DNA of 42,107 bases. It comes from Lachnospiraceae bacterium. Its GTDB lineage: Bacteria; Bacillota; Clostridia; Lachnospirales; Lachnospiraceae. Both the position numbers and the translations under genes were made by a program. A model generated the notes under the pieces. The model worked only from the letters and a program-made list of their open reading frames with translations. It was not told the origin of the DNA and ran no database searches. Every line of letters starts with the position of its first letter. The first letter of the stretch is position 1. The stretch is from positions 1 through 42,107 of the forward strand of contig JAFZLD010000004.1 of NCBI GenBank assembly GCA_017553505.1. Reading direction: 5' to 3'. Shown here in pieces: positions 25,659 to 41,703 of the stretch.

Positions 25659-27779
25659 TTACTCTAAGATGTAATCGATTGTGGTTCCGATTGCGCCGGA
25701 GCCCTGGATTCCGAAGTATGCGCCGCCACCTGCGTATAAGGTGGAATTCCATGATTCGGGAGTGATTACGTAATAGTTGCCTTCCTCGGCAATCTTTACG
25801 CACCAGCTTGAATCGATTCTTACATCGTTCTTGTTGAGTTTAAGCTTCCAGCCTTCAACTGTGCTTCCGCTTGTGTTAAGCACTGTTAAGTTGACTGTGT
25901 AACCGGTTCCCCAGCTGTTAATCTGGTATTCGAACTTAAGGTTCTCGTTGGGCTGAGGTTCGGGTTCAGGTTCAGGGTCGGGGTCGGGCTCGGGTTCGGG
26001 CACAGGATCGGGCTTTACGGGTCCCTTTAAGGCGATCCAGGAATCAAAGTCCACTTCACCTAACTTGCCTACGAAGCATATATTTTTAGTACCTTCTACA
26101 CCTTCAAATGCAACATACTTGGTTACGAATTCGCCGTTTGTTGCGCTTAACTTAATATTCGCGAGTAATTCTCCTCCGATACCGCCTTCGCGTACTTCTA
26201 CGATTGCGGCGCCATCGGTTCTGTATGTAAGGCCGATTAACTTAGAGCCTGTAAATACAACGTTCTTAAACTCTACAAGGCATCCTGACTGAAGATTGTC
26301 AACGTATGTTACATTGCCTTCTGTCTTAACTTCAGATCTCACCACATTACCGGACTCTGCCTGTACTGCAGTGTAAGGATCGATTGCTACGGGTTCGGGT
26401 TCGGGTTCAGGTTCGGGTTCGGGCTCAACTTCTGCCTTAACTACCGACCAGGAGTCGATATCTACTTCGCCCATCTTACCTACGAAGCAGATCTTCTTGG
26501 TGCCGGATACATTGGCAAACTGGAAGCTCTTGGTAATGAACTCACCGTTTGTGGTTCCGATCTTTAATGTGCCGAGTAATTCACCGCCGATACCGTTCTC
26601 TCTTACTTCAACCATAGCAGCGCCTGAAGCTCTGTATGTCAAAGTAAATGACTTGGTGCCGTCAAATTCTACGTTATCAAATGCTACAAGCTTTCCTGAA
26701 GCAAGTCCTGCAACGTATTTAACGTCGCCATCGTTCTGAATTTCCACACCGACGAGCTGGCCGTCTTCAGCCTGTACTGTAGCGTAAGGATTGAACTTAG
26801 TAGGCTGAGGTTCAGGTTCAGGCTCGGGTTCAGGCTCGGGTTCGGGCTGAGGGTCGGGCTTCTCAGGTGCCTTCATAACAATCCAGGAATCGATGTCTGC
26901 GGAACCCATCTTGCCAAGGAATGTAATATCCTTAACGCCTTCTACGTCCACAAATGCAACGTATTTGGTAGTGAACTCGCCGTTGGTGTTGGCAAGCTTA
27001 ACGGAAGCGAGTAAATCACCGCCGATCCCGCCTGCTCTGATTTCAACGATTGAAACCTCGCTTGTTCTGTAAGTGATACCGATAGTCTTGGAACCGTCAA
27101 AAGAAACATTCTTGTAAGTAACAAGGCATGCGGGTGCAAGACCGGATACGAATGTAACATCACCTTCAGTCTTAACTTCAGCTCTTACTACGTTGCCGGA
27201 TTCTGCCTCTACTGTAGAGTAGGGGTTAATCTCAGGCTGCGGTTCGGGCTCGGGCTGAGGTTCGGGTTCAGGTTCAGGTTCGGGTTCGGGATCGGGCTTA
27301 TTGGGACCTAACTTAGCGGTCCAGTAGTCAAGATCCACGCTTCCTACCTTACCTACGAAATAAATATCATGTTTACCTTCAACATTTGCCATGCTTGAGT
27401 AAACTGTCTTAAATTCACCGTTTGTGTTGCTTGCCTTGATAGAACCTAACTTCTCTCCGTCCAAAGCATCAACTCTAACTTCCACAAGGCCTGCGCCGGA
27501 AGCTTTATAGCAAGCTCCGATTAATGTCAAGCCTTCTGTAAAATCAACATCTTTAACCATTACATAGTCGCCTGCTTCAATGCCGGCCACATATGTAACG
27601 TCACCTTCAGTCACAACTTCAACTCCGGACTTGCCGAAATTAAATTCTGCCTGAACTATACCATAAGGGTTTACCTTAGGTGCTGCATACGACGCCATAG
27701 ATGGTGTCAACGTCCCTATAACAACAGCAGATGACAGCAAAACCCCACTAAGTGCAGATAAAACTCTCCTATTCTTCAT
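25659..27779 (-). CDS. Secreted module-only carbohydrate-binding protein (four CBM6-like repeats plus CBM2-like)
   Basis: A 706-residue protein. The signal peptide spans about 1-33 (cut near YAA-PK). Four homologous modules of about 120 residues lie at 37-156, 184-303, 329-448 and 467-586. Each has the CBM6 pattern: an early QAE/EAE, a middle VEVR..GIGGELL, then NGEF and [21 protein letters not shown] near the end. Linkers are Pro-Glu repeats. The last module, 612-706, looks like CBM2, with SWGTGY, GWKLKL, SSW and [12 protein letters not shown] giving surface Trp residues. No catalytic domain is present, no dockerin, no sortase motif. It probably coats cellulose or xylan, or tethers cells to fibre. 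AAGGAGG precedes the ATG by 4 nt. A perfect LacI-type dyad lies 44 nt upstream. Confidence 0.9.
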
Positions 27780-36745: not shown

Positions 36746-37972
36746 TTACTTTTGAATAACGGCAGCCAGACTGCCTCTTGCCCCGTTTGAGTACCTGTGG
36801 GAGTAATAAAGCTCGGGGTGACACATTGTACAGCCGCCTGTAAGCTCTATGTTGTCGGGCTTAAGGCCTAACTGAATCAGGCGTTCACGTACCACGTCGC
36901 GAAGGTTAAGCATGTACTTGCCGTTTTCTTTGGCAGTGATGTGGGCGGTGGCAGGGTTGTTAAGAAGCTTCTGTACCGCCTCTATGACCTCGGGACCCAC
37001 CTCAAAGCAACATGCGTCAATTGCGGGGCCGATGGCTGCGTGAATGTCCGCGGGGTCGGAATTGAGCTCTTTAAAACGGGCTATGGCGTTGCCCTCTATG
37101 TCAGCGACGGTGCTGCGCCATCCGCAGTGAATAGCACCTACCACTCCCGCCTTCTCATCCTGCAAAAGCAGGGGCACGCAATCCGCCGTAAATATCGCAA
37201 GGGGAAGGTTCGGCTCATTGGTCACGTAGCCGTCCGCCTCTATAAGCTCGCCGGGGCCGTAAGAGGGGCGCGCGTCGGCGTGTGTGGCAATGTGTACGTT
37301 GTTTCCGTGTACCTGGGCACCACAGACAAATTCACGGGCCGTTATGCCGGTTGCTTCAAGGAAGCGGCGCCAGTTTTCTTTGACCCTGTTTATATCGTCG
37401 CCACGGTTCATACCAAGGTTCAAGGTTGCGTATACATCGTCGCTTACGCCGCCTACTCTGGTGGAAAAGCCGTGGGGCGCTGTGAGCTTGGTTGAAGTGT
37501 GAATCTTCACAGGCTCCGTGTCGTCCTTAAACTCCGTGAGAACGTCGTTCTCATAGCGAACGGTCATGTTTAAGTTGCGAGCGCCTTTAAGCAGGGGCTC
37601 GATGAAGAAATGGTCGCCTTCCCATGTAGGAAGATCAAGTACCTTGTCGGCATCCACCCAGAGAAGCTCGCCCTCGGGACAATCTTTGATAAGCTCGCCC
37701 GTAAAGTCTGTGCCCTTAAACAGGTACATGTCCTGGTCTCCGCCGGCATTATCGTAGAACTTGATTACGCCCGCGAGATAGTACTCCGTAAGCGTAAGGC
37801 CTGTCTCCTCGTACACTTCTCTTACAAGGCACTCCTCGGCGGTCTCACCGGGCTCGAACTTACCGCCCACTCCGATCCATTTGTCATGGTTTATATCGTT
37901 TTTCTTTTTCACTCTGTGCAAAAGAAGGTATTTACCGTTTTTCTCTATATAACAAAGGGTTGTGCTAAGCAT
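36746..37972 (-). CDS. Fusion of Nudix hydrolase (MutT-like) and PgeF/YfiH laccase-fold purine nucleoside enzyme
   Basis: A 408-residue two-domain protein. Residues 1-145 are a Nudix hydrolase with the box GGKFEPGETAEECL then VREVYEETGL (about 36-59), of the 8-oxo-dGTP diphosphatase type. Residues 155-408 are PgeF (YfiH, formerly polyphenol oxidase, LACC1 family) with the metal ligands in CGAQVHG, FTADCVPLLL and GAIHCGWRST and the C-terminal TGGCTMCHPELYYSHR. PgeF-family enzymes cleave purine nucleosides, and YfiH has also been tied to correct peptidoglycan synthesis. The ATG at 37972 has CGGAG 6 nt upstream; a TTG at 38008 is rejected. Joining pool cleansing with purine nucleoside breakdown in one chain is uncommon. 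Confidence 0.92.
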   Translation of the reverse strand: MLSTTLCYIEKNGKYLLLHRVKKKNDINHDKWIGVGGKFEPGETAEECLVREVYEETGLTLTEYYLAGVIKFYDNAGGDQDMYLFKGTDFTGELIKDCPEGELLWVDADKVLDLPTWEGDHFFIEPLLKGARNLNMTVRYENDVLTEFKDDTEPVKIHTSTKLTAPHGFSTRVGGVSDDVYATLNLGMNRGDDINRVKENWRRFLEATGITAREFVCGAQVHGNNVHIATHADARPSYGPGELIEADGYVTNEPNLPLAIFTADCVPLLLQDEKAGVVGAIHCGWRSTVADIEGNAIARFKELNSDPADIHAAIGPAIDACCFEVGPEVIEAVQKLLNNPATAHITAKENGKYMLNLRDVVRERLIQLGLKPDNIELTGGCTMCHPELYYSHRYSNGARGSLAAVIQK

Positions 37973-38017
37973 CTGCGTCTCCGAATGTAATAATTTCTTT
38001 AATTCCAAGCAGACAGC

Positions 38018-38088: not shown

Positions 38089-39936
38089 TTATTTTCTCGC
38101 GTTTTTCTTACCTGACTTTTCTACATACATTTTCTCGTCAGCTTTATTAATGCAGGCAACGATTCCTTCCATAGGATCGAATTTTTCATACCCTATGCTG
38201 GCCGAGAGTTCATACTCTTTATTTCTGACAGTATTGAATTTCGTAATCTTGCCTCTTATGTATTTGCAAATTTTCTTCGTATCATCTTCATTGCCCAGAA
38301 CAATTATCAGAAACTCATCACCGCCGGTTCGTGCGGCTCCGACCCTATCGTTCTGAACGCTCTTTAGGTACTTACTCAGTTCCTTGATAGCCACATCGCC
38401 TTCCGCATGACCGAAATTGTCGTTAATATACTTAAGGCCGTCCATGTCTACGCTTACGACATGAAGCCCATGCTCATCAATCTTGTCGAGAGCCTTCTGA
38501 ATGTAGAGATCCAATCCTCTCCTGTTCATAAGGCCGGTAAGGCTGTCCATATTGCTTTCTTCTCGGTACCTTAAGAGCTCTTTGTTCTTTTCGTACATCT
38601 TTATTTTGTCAAGATAGTTGGACAGTGCGCTGGACCACAGAATGAATCCTTCTTTCAATCTGCTCATGTCTTCAAAAGTAAGTGCCAGGTAGCCCATGCA
38701 GTGACCTCTGAAATGAAGCGGGAATATCGAAAGAAGTGATATCTTATCCTTATACCTATCCGGAAGGATTTCCACCCTGTCAAAGCGTTCATCGCATTTC
38801 ACATACCCGTCTGCTTTGGAGAATATGGCAACGAGCCGCATCTTTTCGGTGTAATCTCCCAAATTGGCTACGTCCTCATCCTCTCGGTCTTCACACAGGC
38901 ACACGTACATCTCCTTGTGCCCGAATGTCTTTGAGTACAAAAAAGCCTCGTTCAAAACGTCTTCGACCGTCTCGCAGTTTTCAAGTGCCCCGCTTAGAGC
39001 AAGCTGTGTATGTACGGAGTCCTTAAGATAATTAAGGCCCTCATACGCTCTTTCATTAATCCTCTGCTTGTATTCTGAGTGACATCCGCATGTTCCTTCC
39101 ATTATTGGCAGTGCCGAAACGGAAACTGTTCGCGGAACTTTCTTTTTACTCAATATGTCGGTCAGCATTTTGACGGCCTTGCGGGCGAGCTCTTCTACCG
39201 GTACTTCCGCGGATGCCAGTCGCCTGTCGAGAAGTTGACCCTCGACTATGTTGTCATAGCCGGAAAGCTTTATACCTTCGGGTATTGCCACGCCACGTTC
39301 CGAAAGCTCTCTGTACAAAGAAAGTGCCATATAGTCATTGGCGCATACTATTGCCTCCGGTTGGTCCTTGTCTTCCGCAAACCACTCAAGACATTGCTTG
39401 GCCTTTGTAGTCCAATAATTGCCATGGTAGATCATGCTTTTTCTTACGGGAAGGCCGTGGCGTTTCATGACGTTCTTATATGCATCGAGACGGATTTTGG
39501 CATCTTTCATTCCTTGTGTGCCGGACATGTAGAAAATCTTTTTAAGCCCGTGCTTCACAATAAAGTGTTCCACTATTTGTTCCATGGATACGGAATCGTC
39601 CACCAGGACATTGTAGTACTCTTCTTTTTCCGCACGGATGCAAACTATCGGACAGGAACACTCTTGCTGGATCTTCTCATGAAGTTCCTCATACATTCCG
39701 TCAACAGTAAGTGTATCCGGTGCTATTATTACTCCGTCATATCTTTCAAGATTGGGGATGGTTATGACATTTATCTCGCCTCGGGTATGAAGATAGTTAG
39801 TGGCATAGACACCATAATTGGTAAAGATATCTATCTTAACTCCATATTCTGCTACAGCTTCTTTGATTCCTTCATACAGTCGTGACTGATAGTCCATGAA
39901 TAATTCGCCGGCAAACAAAGCCAACCGTTTTTGCAT
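38089..39936 (-). CDS. Diguanylate cyclase with LacI-type sugar-sensor domain
   Basis: A 615-residue cytosolic protein. Residues 1-275 are a periplasmic-binding-protein-like domain of the LacI/GalR effector type (GVIIAPDTLTVDG, KIFYMSGTQGMKDAKIRLDAYK, AIVCANDYMALSLYREL, KLSGYDNIVEGQL) but without the helix-turn-helix. Residues 290-450 are a GAF-like or linker region with a coiled coil. Residues 455-615 are GGDEF: NMDSLTGLMNRRGL starts it and GGDEF at 538-542 is intact, so cyclase activity is expected. The RxxD inhibitory site is absent. There is no signal peptide, so the sugar is sensed inside the cell. Divergent from the cNMP-domain gene at 40135. It converts a sugar signal to c-di-GMP; this is inferred. 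Confidence 0.92.
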   Translation of the reverse strand: MQKRLALFAGELFMDYQSRLYEGIKEAVAEYGVKIDIFTNYGVYATNYLHTRGEINVITIPNLERYDGVIIAPDTLTVDGMYEELHEKIQQECSCPIVCIRAEKEEYYNVLVDDSVSMEQIVEHFIVKHGLKKIFYMSGTQGMKDAKIRLDAYKNVMKRHGLPVRKSMIYHGNYWTTKAKQCLEWFAEDKDQPEAIVCANDYMALSLYRELSERGVAIPEGIKLSGYDNIVEGQLLDRRLASAEVPVEELARKAVKMLTDILSKKKVPRTVSVSALPIMEGTCGCHSEYKQRINERAYEGLNYLKDSVHTQLALSGALENCETVEDVLNEAFLYSKTFGHKEMYVCLCEDREDEDVANLGDYTEKMRLVAIFSKADGYVKCDERFDRVEILPDRYKDKISLLSIFPLHFRGHCMGYLALTFEDMSRLKEGFILWSSALSNYLDKIKMYEKNKELLRYREESNMDSLTGLMNRRGLDLYIQKALDKIDEHGLHVVSVDMDGLKYINDNFGHAEGDVAIKELSKYLKSVQNDRVGAARTGGDEFLIIVLGNEDDTKKICKYIRGKITKFNTVRNKEYELSASIGYEKFDPMEGIVACINKADEKMYVEKSGKKNARK

Positions 39937-40054: not shown

Positions 40055-40134
40055 GGTTAGGATAATCTGTTTCGATATGCTTACAGAAATTATAAAAAGT
40101 GCTTAAGCGATTAACCCGGAGGAGGATTACAGAA

Positions 40135-41667
40135 ATGTATCAGGATATTTTCATTTACCGATGCAGTAAGAACACCTCCATAAGTGAACTTGAAGGGCTC
40201 TTCGATAGATTGGGCAACTCTGTCAATGTGCGTGTGCGTGATATTTCTCACGGTGCTTTTGACGAGCGTGCCAATGTCTTCAGTTCGATTATCGCGGCGC
40301 TTCATAAACGTGATGCTTATCACGATGAAACGCCTCTTTTGACTGTTCTTAAAACTTCTGATGTTGAATATTACCTTCTTCTGTCCATAAATGCTATGTT
40401 GCCTGACGATGAGGTCGAGTCGTTTCTTGCCAAGGTGTTCCGCAGCAACAATTTCGAAACGTTACGGCTTTTGGGCGGTTCGCCGCACTCCAAGGAAGAA
40501 AGTGAAAAGTACTGGGCCGGAATCCTCGAGGACGAAGAAGTGCTTCCCGTGGGAATGGTGGCAAATGCCAGATGCACCAAGGAACGTATGGAAGAAGTTC
40601 TCACCGTCAGCCCGGACATTACAGGTGCGTTAAGGAATCCTGCCAATAGCAATATCAATTTGTCGTCACTCTGCGCTACTATTTGGGGCTCCATTGCCTG
40701 CAAGTATTTTGAGTCCGAAAGCCTTTTGATTGAGTCCAAACACGAAAACGGTAAGCTTTTCAGGATTCCGCTCAGGGTTGATACAACCTCCAAATTTATA
40801 GATTCTTATGCTTTTACTGAGATGCAGTTCAGAAATGCTCTCGATTACGATAATTTATTCTTTGACGAACTGGAAACGGCTACGTCCTGCGATTTTTCGT
40901 CTTCCATGGCGTTCTCTGTGGGTTTTTACAATCGTTATCGATACGCGCCGCTCCTTCGTACGCTGCACGCCGGAATTCCTTACAAGTTAAGACACTTAGA
41001 GAGTTCCGATATGCCTATGCGTATCTACTGTCATTATTCGGATACCATAATGCGTATCAGATATAATTACGATGTGGGAATTGTTAAGAGTGCAGGCATC
41101 TTCTCACTTCACAAAGCGTTTTCTGAGACGCTTGAACGCTTTCTTTCGTCCAGCAGAGATGTTAATGTCAATAAGATTGTGCTACGTCCCGACAAAGAAA
41201 GTCCGTTGCAGCGCAGCACCGATTATATCAGCTCGACATTGGCCAAAAGCGAAATGTTCAAGCTGTACAATCCCAAAGACCTCGAGAAGTTTAGCTCTAA
41301 CTGTTCGAGAGTATGGAAGTTCTCGGAAGAAACCATTCTTGAGGACGGAAAGCTCGCGGATGCGTTATATATGCTTACTTCCGGTAAGATTGTGGTTGAG
41401 ACTGTGGGTAAGGACAGAAATGTTAAGATAATCCATGTATTAAGGCCCGGCAACATATTCGGTATAGAGTGTCTGCTTAACGATCCTACCGTAGACTTTA
41501 CTTACAGAGCCGTTACAGAAATGGTGGAGCTTATAAAGATTCCCAAGAATCTGCTTAAAGATGAGCTGACGCTTCACCCTAAGCTAAATACCATCATAAT
41601 GAATATTCAGAGCAATCAGCTTAATAAGCTGGCTAAGCTTCTGGCTACCAAAGATGTAAATTCATAG
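40135..41667 (+). CDS. Degenerate NRPS condensation-like domain fused to a cyclic-nucleotide-binding domain
   Basis: A 510-residue cytosolic protein with no signal peptide. Residues 372-495 are a CRP/PKA-type cNMP-binding beta-roll (LADALYMLTSGKIVVE, LRPGNIFGIECLLND) without a DNA-binding domain. Residues 1-355 follow the order of a condensation domain: DETPLLTVLKTSDVEYYLLLSI before the active-site loop, YWAGIL at 126-131, NLSSLCATIWGSIACKYF at 175-192, FRIPLRVD, ALDYDNLFFDEL at 235-246, and MRIYCHYSDTIMRIRYNYDVGI then FSETLERFLS near the end. The HHxxxDG site has become NAMLPDD (86-92), so catalysis is unlikely, and the first 80-90 residues of a full domain are missing. ATG chosen for the GGAGGAGG site 9 nt upstream. 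The ligand and role are unknown. Confidence 0.75.
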   Translation: MYQDIFIYRCSKNTSISELEGLFDRLGNSVNVRVRDISHGAFDERANVFSSIIAALHKRDAYHDETPLLTVLKTSDVEYYLLLSINAMLPDDEVESFLAKVFRSNNFETLRLLGGSPHSKEESEKYWAGILEDEEVLPVGMVANARCTKERMEEVLTVSPDITGALRNPANSNINLSSLCATIWGSIACKYFESESLLIESKHENGKLFRIPLRVDTTSKFIDSYAFTEMQFRNALDYDNLFFDELETATSCDFSSSMAFSVGFYNRYRYAPLLRTLHAGIPYKLRHLESSDMPMRIYCHYSDTIMRIRYNYDVGIVKSAGIFSLHKAFSETLERFLSSSRDVNVNKIVLRPDKESPLQRSTDYISSTLAKSEMFKLYNPKDLEKFSSNCSRVWKFSEETILEDGKLADALYMLTSGKIVVETVGKDRNVKIIHVLRPGNIFGIECLLNDPTVDFTYRAVTEMVELIKIPKNLLKDELTLHPKLNTIIMNIQSNQLNKLAKLLATKDVNS

Positions 41668-41674
41668 AAACAAC

Positions 41675-41703
41675 AAAAAAGACAGTCGATTGACTGTCTT
41701 TTT
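41675..41703 (+). terminator. Terminator of the cNMP-domain gene
   Basis: AAAGACAGTC and GACTGTCTTT around a 4-nt loop, followed by TTT, 10 nt after the stop at 41667. Flanking A-rich and T-rich runs also allow termination of the minus-strand tRNA transcript. Confidence 0.9.

Follow-up and report, generated by a model that had tools for sequence, protein, structure and literature searches.

Near one end of the 42,107-nucleotide stretch of DNA from a rumen Lachnospiraceae bacterium analysed here (the window) lies a gene for a protein of 510 amino acids, at 40135..41667 on the + strand (the last codon ends at 41664 and the stop extends to 41667), which the initial annotation had read as an inactivated condensation domain of nonribosomal peptide synthetases (NRPSs) joined to a cyclic-nucleotide (cNMP)-binding domain. 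The question that it raises is whether a truncated condensation (C) domain and a cNMP domain are indeed encoded together in this one frame, and what such a protein might do. The observation of a gene with a C-domain-like part and a cNMP part was confirmed, while the interpretation placed on it was supported in part, as set out below.

The ATG at 40135 is 9 nt downstream of a strong ribosome-binding site, GGAGGAGG (40118..40125, + strand). Directly 3' of the gene is a terminator-like stem-loop (41676..41703), listed on the - strand, which by eye also ends in a T run on the + strand, and beyond it stand tRNA-Leu and tRNA-Val genes on the strand opposite to that of the 510-aa gene. Given its own ribosome-binding site, the stem that follows it and the opposing tRNA genes, the gene is probably transcribed alone. 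A 99% identical protein is encoded by Lachnospiraceae bacterium YSD2013, and an 87% identical orthologue (L003) by a Lachnospiraceae metagenome-assembled genome from sheep rumen; the gene is present in three of the 18 genomes of the window's genus, its own genome counted.

When the window protein was searched as a single sequence, residues 1-360 had no Pfam or NCBIfam match, and the best 60 of its 85 matches in the PDB all fell at residues >=358. The first part of the protein was thus invisible to single-sequence searches, and any claim about its fold needed relatives. With residues 1-360 as the query, matches were found in 6 of 299 family genomes, including its own, at identities down to 19%. 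The relatives L004, L005 and L006 have the same short length as the window protein, and L007 and L008 are longer at the N-terminus and carry a Pfam Condensation match (4.8e-17 over residues 52-435 in L008, and 7.7e-9 in two stretches in L007) followed by the cNMP domain; the cNMP matches of L004, L006 and L007 were below the Pfam cut-off. Profile searches raised the family to 15 members.

A profile of five short homologues (the short-form profile, 356 positions) had NRPS chains in the first five places of its PDB matches, headed by 9rde (bacitracin synthase 3; 1.2e-8, positions 22-337) and continuing with chains of tyrocidine synthase 2 and surfactin synthetase. Among the 21 matches listed, 15 were regulators of HTH/PadR type and one was a further NRPS chain, at E 1.1; unrelated chains were found only from E 0.16. 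This PDB search is free of the enrichment bias that touches the C domains drawn from genomes, which lie in frames fetched by profiles containing family members and are enriched for similarity. The best NRPS match of the short-form profile was 6.1e-10 compared with 0.11 for the best of 700 shuffled sequences, and 29 of 35 frames and all ten long family members outscored that shuffle. Run against eight genomes, the same profile gave 11 matches at E<=1 in six of them (frames of 480-5703 aa) and none in the other two; these genomes had been picked for hits with earlier profiles, and nine of the 11 matches are places already found.

Approached from the opposite side, a profile made only of C domains (58, from the fetched frames, with some overlapping copies) scored the window protein at 1e-7 and reached 2.3e-4 or better for 14 of the 15 members, as against 0.27 for the best of 750 shuffles. 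The exception was L006, which at 0.25 was inside the shuffle range. The scores fell stepwise, from 3e-89 and 1e-84 for the two members that keep the catalytic motif to 5e-46 for L019 and 1e-35 to 4e-15 for other long members, with L021 (1.7e-6) and the short forms (2e-8 and weaker) at the low end. At E<=0.01 Pfam recognized cNMP_binding in all 15 members and Condensation (PF00668) in ten, at best with 1.9e-69; PF00668 is absent from the window protein's own Pfam matches, and its homology to solved C domains runs through the profiles. A structure prediction with the window protein, L002 and L003 as rows returned a mean pLDDT of 33.4 and a pTM of 0.23, too low for the model to lend the fold any support. 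Judged by the profiles, residues ~32-350 (40228..41184, + strand) are a degenerate descendant of an NRPS condensation domain.

The motif order of a condensation domain had been claimed for residues 45-350, and the motifs do stand at the expected positions of the alignment, named C1 to C7 in condensation domains. They comprise YW at residues 126-127 (40510..40515, + strand), whose W is invariant in all 15 members; the WG helix, NLSSLCATIWGSIACKY, at residues 175-191 (40657..40707, + strand); IPLRVD at residues 211-216 (40765..40782, + strand), which ends the C5 position; and FFDELE at residues 242-247 (40858..40875, + strand), at the C6 position. The start of the fold is missing, as had been suggested. 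HMM homology of the window protein and the short forms to the long members begins at about residue 32, corresponding to position 111 of 456, and the C1 and C2 motifs are absent or unrecognizable. The stretch in front, residues 1-31 (40135..40227, + strand), is left unaligned to the long members by the HMM; in the MAFFT alignment residues 1-26 fall on the strand and helix that precede C2, a pairing that the HMM does not make.

The second His of HHxxxDG is the catalytic residue of condensation domains. Its loss from the window protein was borne out by the family alignment, in which NAMLPDDEV (residues 86-94; 40390..40416, + strand) fills the slot. Across the family the slot reads PHINSDG and PHINTDG in L020 and L030, and the pattern is lost in the 13 others of the 15. 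A His still occupies the slot of two pattern-less members, L008 (YHDLCKS) and L004 (KHSSDG, one residue short), the latter being a short form and odd, against the general decay, in keeping so much. Among the 58 C domains from fetched frames, xHxxxDG occurs in 48 and HHxxxDG in 44, and ten are without xHxxxDG. Thirteen columns before the C5 position are filled only in the two PHxxxDG members and are empty in all others, including the window protein. An [LM]W motif closes the sequence in 12 of the 15 members; the window protein, L003 and L064 are without it.

Comparison with the 87% orthologue gave a dN/dS of 0.04 (0.05 over residues 1-355). Although dS was saturated, at about 2, a pseudogene is rejected on that ratio. 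Changes affect 64 of 509 residues, and eight of these are consecutive, at 87-94 in the dead slot. Eight of the nine slot residues (86-94) differ, and the run is the only one in which eight of eight are changed; it was reached in none of 20000 shuffles, although a pair of small indels could contribute to it. The window gene is under purifying selection, and its former active site is not kept.

Purifying selection over the C part is also what would be expected were the protein still an enzyme with some other chemistry on the same fold, and D36, Y79, S84, E154 and H326 are among the polar residues invariant in the five short forms, while L004 keeps KHSSDG in its slot. However, only W127, P212 and G417 are invariant in the 15-member alignment, the catalytic slot is the window protein's most variable stretch, and the C1/C2 part is missing, all of which leaves continued catalysis decidedly unlikely in our estimation. 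A role as docking platform or regulator is the more probable one for the window protein.

Of 397 Lachnospiraceae genomes sampled, 25 gave matches at E<=1e-6, and the two-domain protein was present in 12 of these, as 14 genes; the remaining matches were to other frames, of 474 to 6359 aa. Sampling at the level of the order (295 genomes) and of the class (196 genomes) also gave matches outside the family, but none of the frames retrieved from these shows the family's cNMP domain. A profile of that domain found all 15 members and none of 326 other frames of >=300 aa in the loci, where a locus takes in ~1.5 kb either side, not every match became a locus, and a distant cNMP domain in a very long frame would escape. 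Phage and plasmid records held no relatives at E<=1e-3, and genome searches around G187 and G135 turned up no two-domain gene beyond those known.

A tree of the C part with the first 40 of the 58 C domains, which has long branches and comes from a short search, joined the five short forms in one group (SH-aLRT 90, below the program's star) and the 12 eroded and short members in another (SH-aLRT 98), with L019 and the two motif keepers placed in an unresolved fork with NRPS rows. Constraining all 15 members together gave a better tree, by 6.97 log-likelihood units (p-AU 0.78), which does not reject a single origin and stops short of showing a clade. The tree agrees with a single fusion and later decay along several lineages, in an order of events read from long branches. 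As judged from these alignments, the window protein belongs to a Lachnospiraceae family of C domain plus cNMP domain that extends from PHxxxDG members in NRPS clusters to eroded, truncated orphans. The initial annotation had supposed that such an architecture would be new, and a full-text literature search on both domain names (with preprints and most papers in subscription journals outside it) found no paper naming it; one review mentions condensation and cNMP domains, but in separate places.

The C-terminal part was as predicted, a cNMP roll without a DNA-binding domain. The cNMP-binding-fold domain covers residues ~365-500 (41227..41634, + strand; Pfam and PDB matches), PF00027 (cNMP_binding) scores 45.7 bits over residues 398-476 relative to a cut-off of 27.5, no HTH match was found in the window protein, and the chain ends, at residue 510, soon after the beta-roll. 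What ligand the roll might accept depends on the phosphate-binding-cassette position, FGIECLLNDPTVDFTYRAV (residues 442-460; 41458..41514, + strand), which is without the cassette Arg and has its Glu at best one residue late. The cassette Glu and Arg correspond to Glu72 and Arg82 of CRP, and CRP-like proteins have this Arg. The alignment to 2pqq is gapless and puts Ile444 and Val453 opposite Glu and Arg; with 4byy, 4cyd and 3r6s HMMER opens a one-residue gap, by which Glu445 meets Glu and Asp454 meets Arg; three of the five alignments listed thus pair the shifted Glu with that of the cassette. In neither register does the window protein have a cassette Arg. Across the family, the gapless register gives Glu in 0/15 and Arg in 0/15, and the register one residue later gives Glu or Asp in 12/15 and Arg in one, L016 (L066), whose cassette has Glu and, nine residues on, Arg-Thr, and which is likewise odd beside the general decay.

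A search with PF00211 found no class III cyclase match in the window's own genome; such a match is present in nine of the 13 family-bearing genomes, including G304, which is of the same genus and carries the gene. Given the changed cassette and the lack of a PF00211 match in its own genome, the window protein is doubtful as a classical cyclic-nucleotide switch, which L016 might still be. The proposal of a dead acyltransferase switched by a nucleotide held as regards a dead C domain fused to a cNMP fold, and is in doubt as regards a cyclic nucleotide as the switch. Gating by cAMP or cGMP, as in CRP or mycobacterial Pat, might still be argued from the margin by which cNMP_binding exceeds the Pfam cut-off, from the cyclase matches of the other genomes, from the acidic residue one past the cassette Glu position in most members and from the Glu and Arg-Thr of L016; with an Arg-less window protein, an Arg in at most one relative and an own genome lacking PF00211, we hold it to be highly improbable.

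NtcA, too, aligns to the cassette without gaps: FGVLSLL..YHAV of the window protein faces FGIECLL..YRAV, and in either sequence the Gly is followed by a hydrophobic residue. The ligand of NtcA is 2-oxoglutarate, and it could be imagined that a metabolite is sensed here in the same manner while the dead C domain holds a partner. The two Arg of the NtcA loop, however, lie opposite Thr452 and Phe455, and the overall similarity is weak (5.9e-5), so an NtcA-style sensor appears unlikely.

The gene is divergent from a diguanylate cyclase, as had been stated: a 615-aa protein with a periplasmic-binding fold and a GGDEF domain (Pfam) is encoded at 38089..39936 on the - strand. A GGDEF gene is within 2.5 kb at three of the 15 loci (the window, L005 and L016), with 0.53 expected (Poisson P 0.017, uncorrected and post hoc); within 6 kb the count is four with 1.17 expected (P 0.03), and within 9 kb four with 1.68 expected (P 0.09), again over 15 loci and uncorrected. 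At the 87% orthologue, 133 bases separate the gene from a NUDIX-laccase gene and there is no cyclase between them. The GGDEF neighbour was dropped as an obligate partner on account of this orthologue and of the fading at 9 kb, and the link to the cyclase is weak, a hint at most. A GGDEF protein at 3308-5188 of L060, at a distance of four genes from the L004 member, has by eye the same kind of opening as the periplasmic-binding-fold cyclase of the window, and its gene adjoins genes that by eye resemble an ABC transporter. In the window itself, 36746-38008 (- strand) encodes NUDIX and multi-copper polyphenol oxidoreductase (laccase) domains in one frame, and the frame in the 87% relative has a similar length and the same opening; farther away, 25659-27779 (- strand) encodes a 706-aa protein that combines CBM6 and CBM2 modules with a repetitive linker.

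A receptor for c-di-GMP or another cyclic dinucleotide, paired with the divergent cyclase, binding its ligand in the beta-roll and using the dead C domain as output, would account for the short-range excess and for the GGDEF-EAL gene that follows L005 on the same strand, and all 13 genomes examined have GGDEF matches, 11-35 in each. Considering that the orthologue has no cyclase at the site, and that the test was devised post hoc on few loci and yields P 0.09 at 9 kb, we think such a receptor quite unlikely.

The two motif keepers, both from one genome only, lie in NRPS-type clusters, each directly after a gene of PP-binding domains and near AMP-binding genes. The paralogues with PHINxDG lie at 8815-10722 of L070 and 9252-11231 of L071, in one genome; with a full C domain and the cNMP domain, in NRPS-type clusters, they are candidates for condensation enzymes gated by a sensor. 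L018 has an acyltransferase-3 gene two genes away and a gene with AMP-binding and PP-binding domains three away; L021 is behind a SpoIIE phosphatase and an HATPase_c_2 protein, and L016 behind a two-component pair and its GGDEF gene. The neighbours of the orphan members form no common pattern. In the window's own genome a 2804-aa frame (G000:C14:152135-152869, L127) has a C domain with FHHILMDGW and might supply the window protein with partners.

We lean, without pressing the point, to the view that the window protein, as the most reduced member of a Lachnospiraceae family of C domain plus beta-roll, is a non-catalytic docking or regulatory protein whose ligand is rather not cAMP or cGMP. Profiles and alignment show that the family joins an NRPS condensation domain, standing alone, to a beta-roll of CRP type. 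Because the two PHxxxDG members adjoin carrier-protein genes, the ancestor was likely a condensation enzyme that acted in trans in an NRPS cluster, on a carrier protein, and was gated by the sensor domain. The orphans lost the catalytic motif, probably more than once, together with the segment before C5, the range of states being present in living members and their order in time presumed; the short forms lost the C1/C2 region in addition. Kept by purifying selection, the window protein would most likely act as a non-catalytic docking or regulatory protein, in which the sensor domain, perhaps dimeric through the last helix, could alter how the pseudo-condensation scaffold meets a partner protein. 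The changed cassette makes cAMP or cGMP a less likely ligand, if there is one, than a metabolite or a different nucleotide. Against this account, the patternless neighbours of the orphans could also fit an enzyme.

A broader reading, offered tentatively and as a possibility that may well fail, is that a sensor-bearing domain for peptide-bond formation left NRPS biosynthesis, lost catalysis and gave rise in Lachnospiraceae to a family of cytoplasmic, signal-responsive scaffolds, tuned to something other than a classical cyclic mononucleotide and with stages of the conversion still extant. If true, it would offer a workable example of how an enzyme domain becomes a scaffold for signalling, and in the two PHxxxDG members a ligand might directly control a step of nonribosomal condensation.

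Several known systems share one part or the other with this protein. The best NCBIfam model for the window protein is that of family 2B encapsulin (NF041163), which is also the one matched by most members, 11 of the 15 at E<=0.01; the likeness is in the CNB part only, and an encapsulin identity was rejected at 29.9 bits relative to a cut-off of 400. CRP/FNR regulators and NtcA have the beta-roll and the following helix in common with the window protein, which is without their HTH and has another domain in front. To the NRPS condensation domain the likeness is one of profile homology, over positions 22-337 of 356, and of the YW, WG-helix, C5 and C6 positions; the window protein differs in being without HHxxxDG and the C1/C2 region, in standing outside an NRPS and in its added cNMP domain.

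Dead C domains inside assembly lines and sensor-gated acyltransferases are each known, and what is new, as not found in print by the full-text search, is a C domain with a CRP-type sensor in forms from motif-keeping to truncated within one bacterial family. In function, the closest parallel is the X domain of glycopeptide-antibiotic NRPSs, described in PMC8949500 as a C domain inactive by changes in HHxxxDG and reused as a platform that recruits P450s; it sits in the termination module of the NRPS, whereas the window protein is a separate, truncated chain that has a sensor domain and is encoded outside an NRPS cluster. In architecture, the closest parallel is mycobacterial Pat/Kat, which PMC5861322 describes as a GNAT acetyltransferase activated by cAMP via a fused cNMP domain. 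The window protein has no Pfam match to a GNAT domain, and the NCBIfam Pat model meets it at residues 373-462 only, with 12.4 of 460 bits. Both combine an acyltransferase-type fold and a cNMP domain in one chain, but in Pat the cNMP domain is N-terminal and the fold is GNAT, whereas in the window protein the cNMP domain is C-terminal, the fold is another, the catalytic motif is lost and the cassette is changed.
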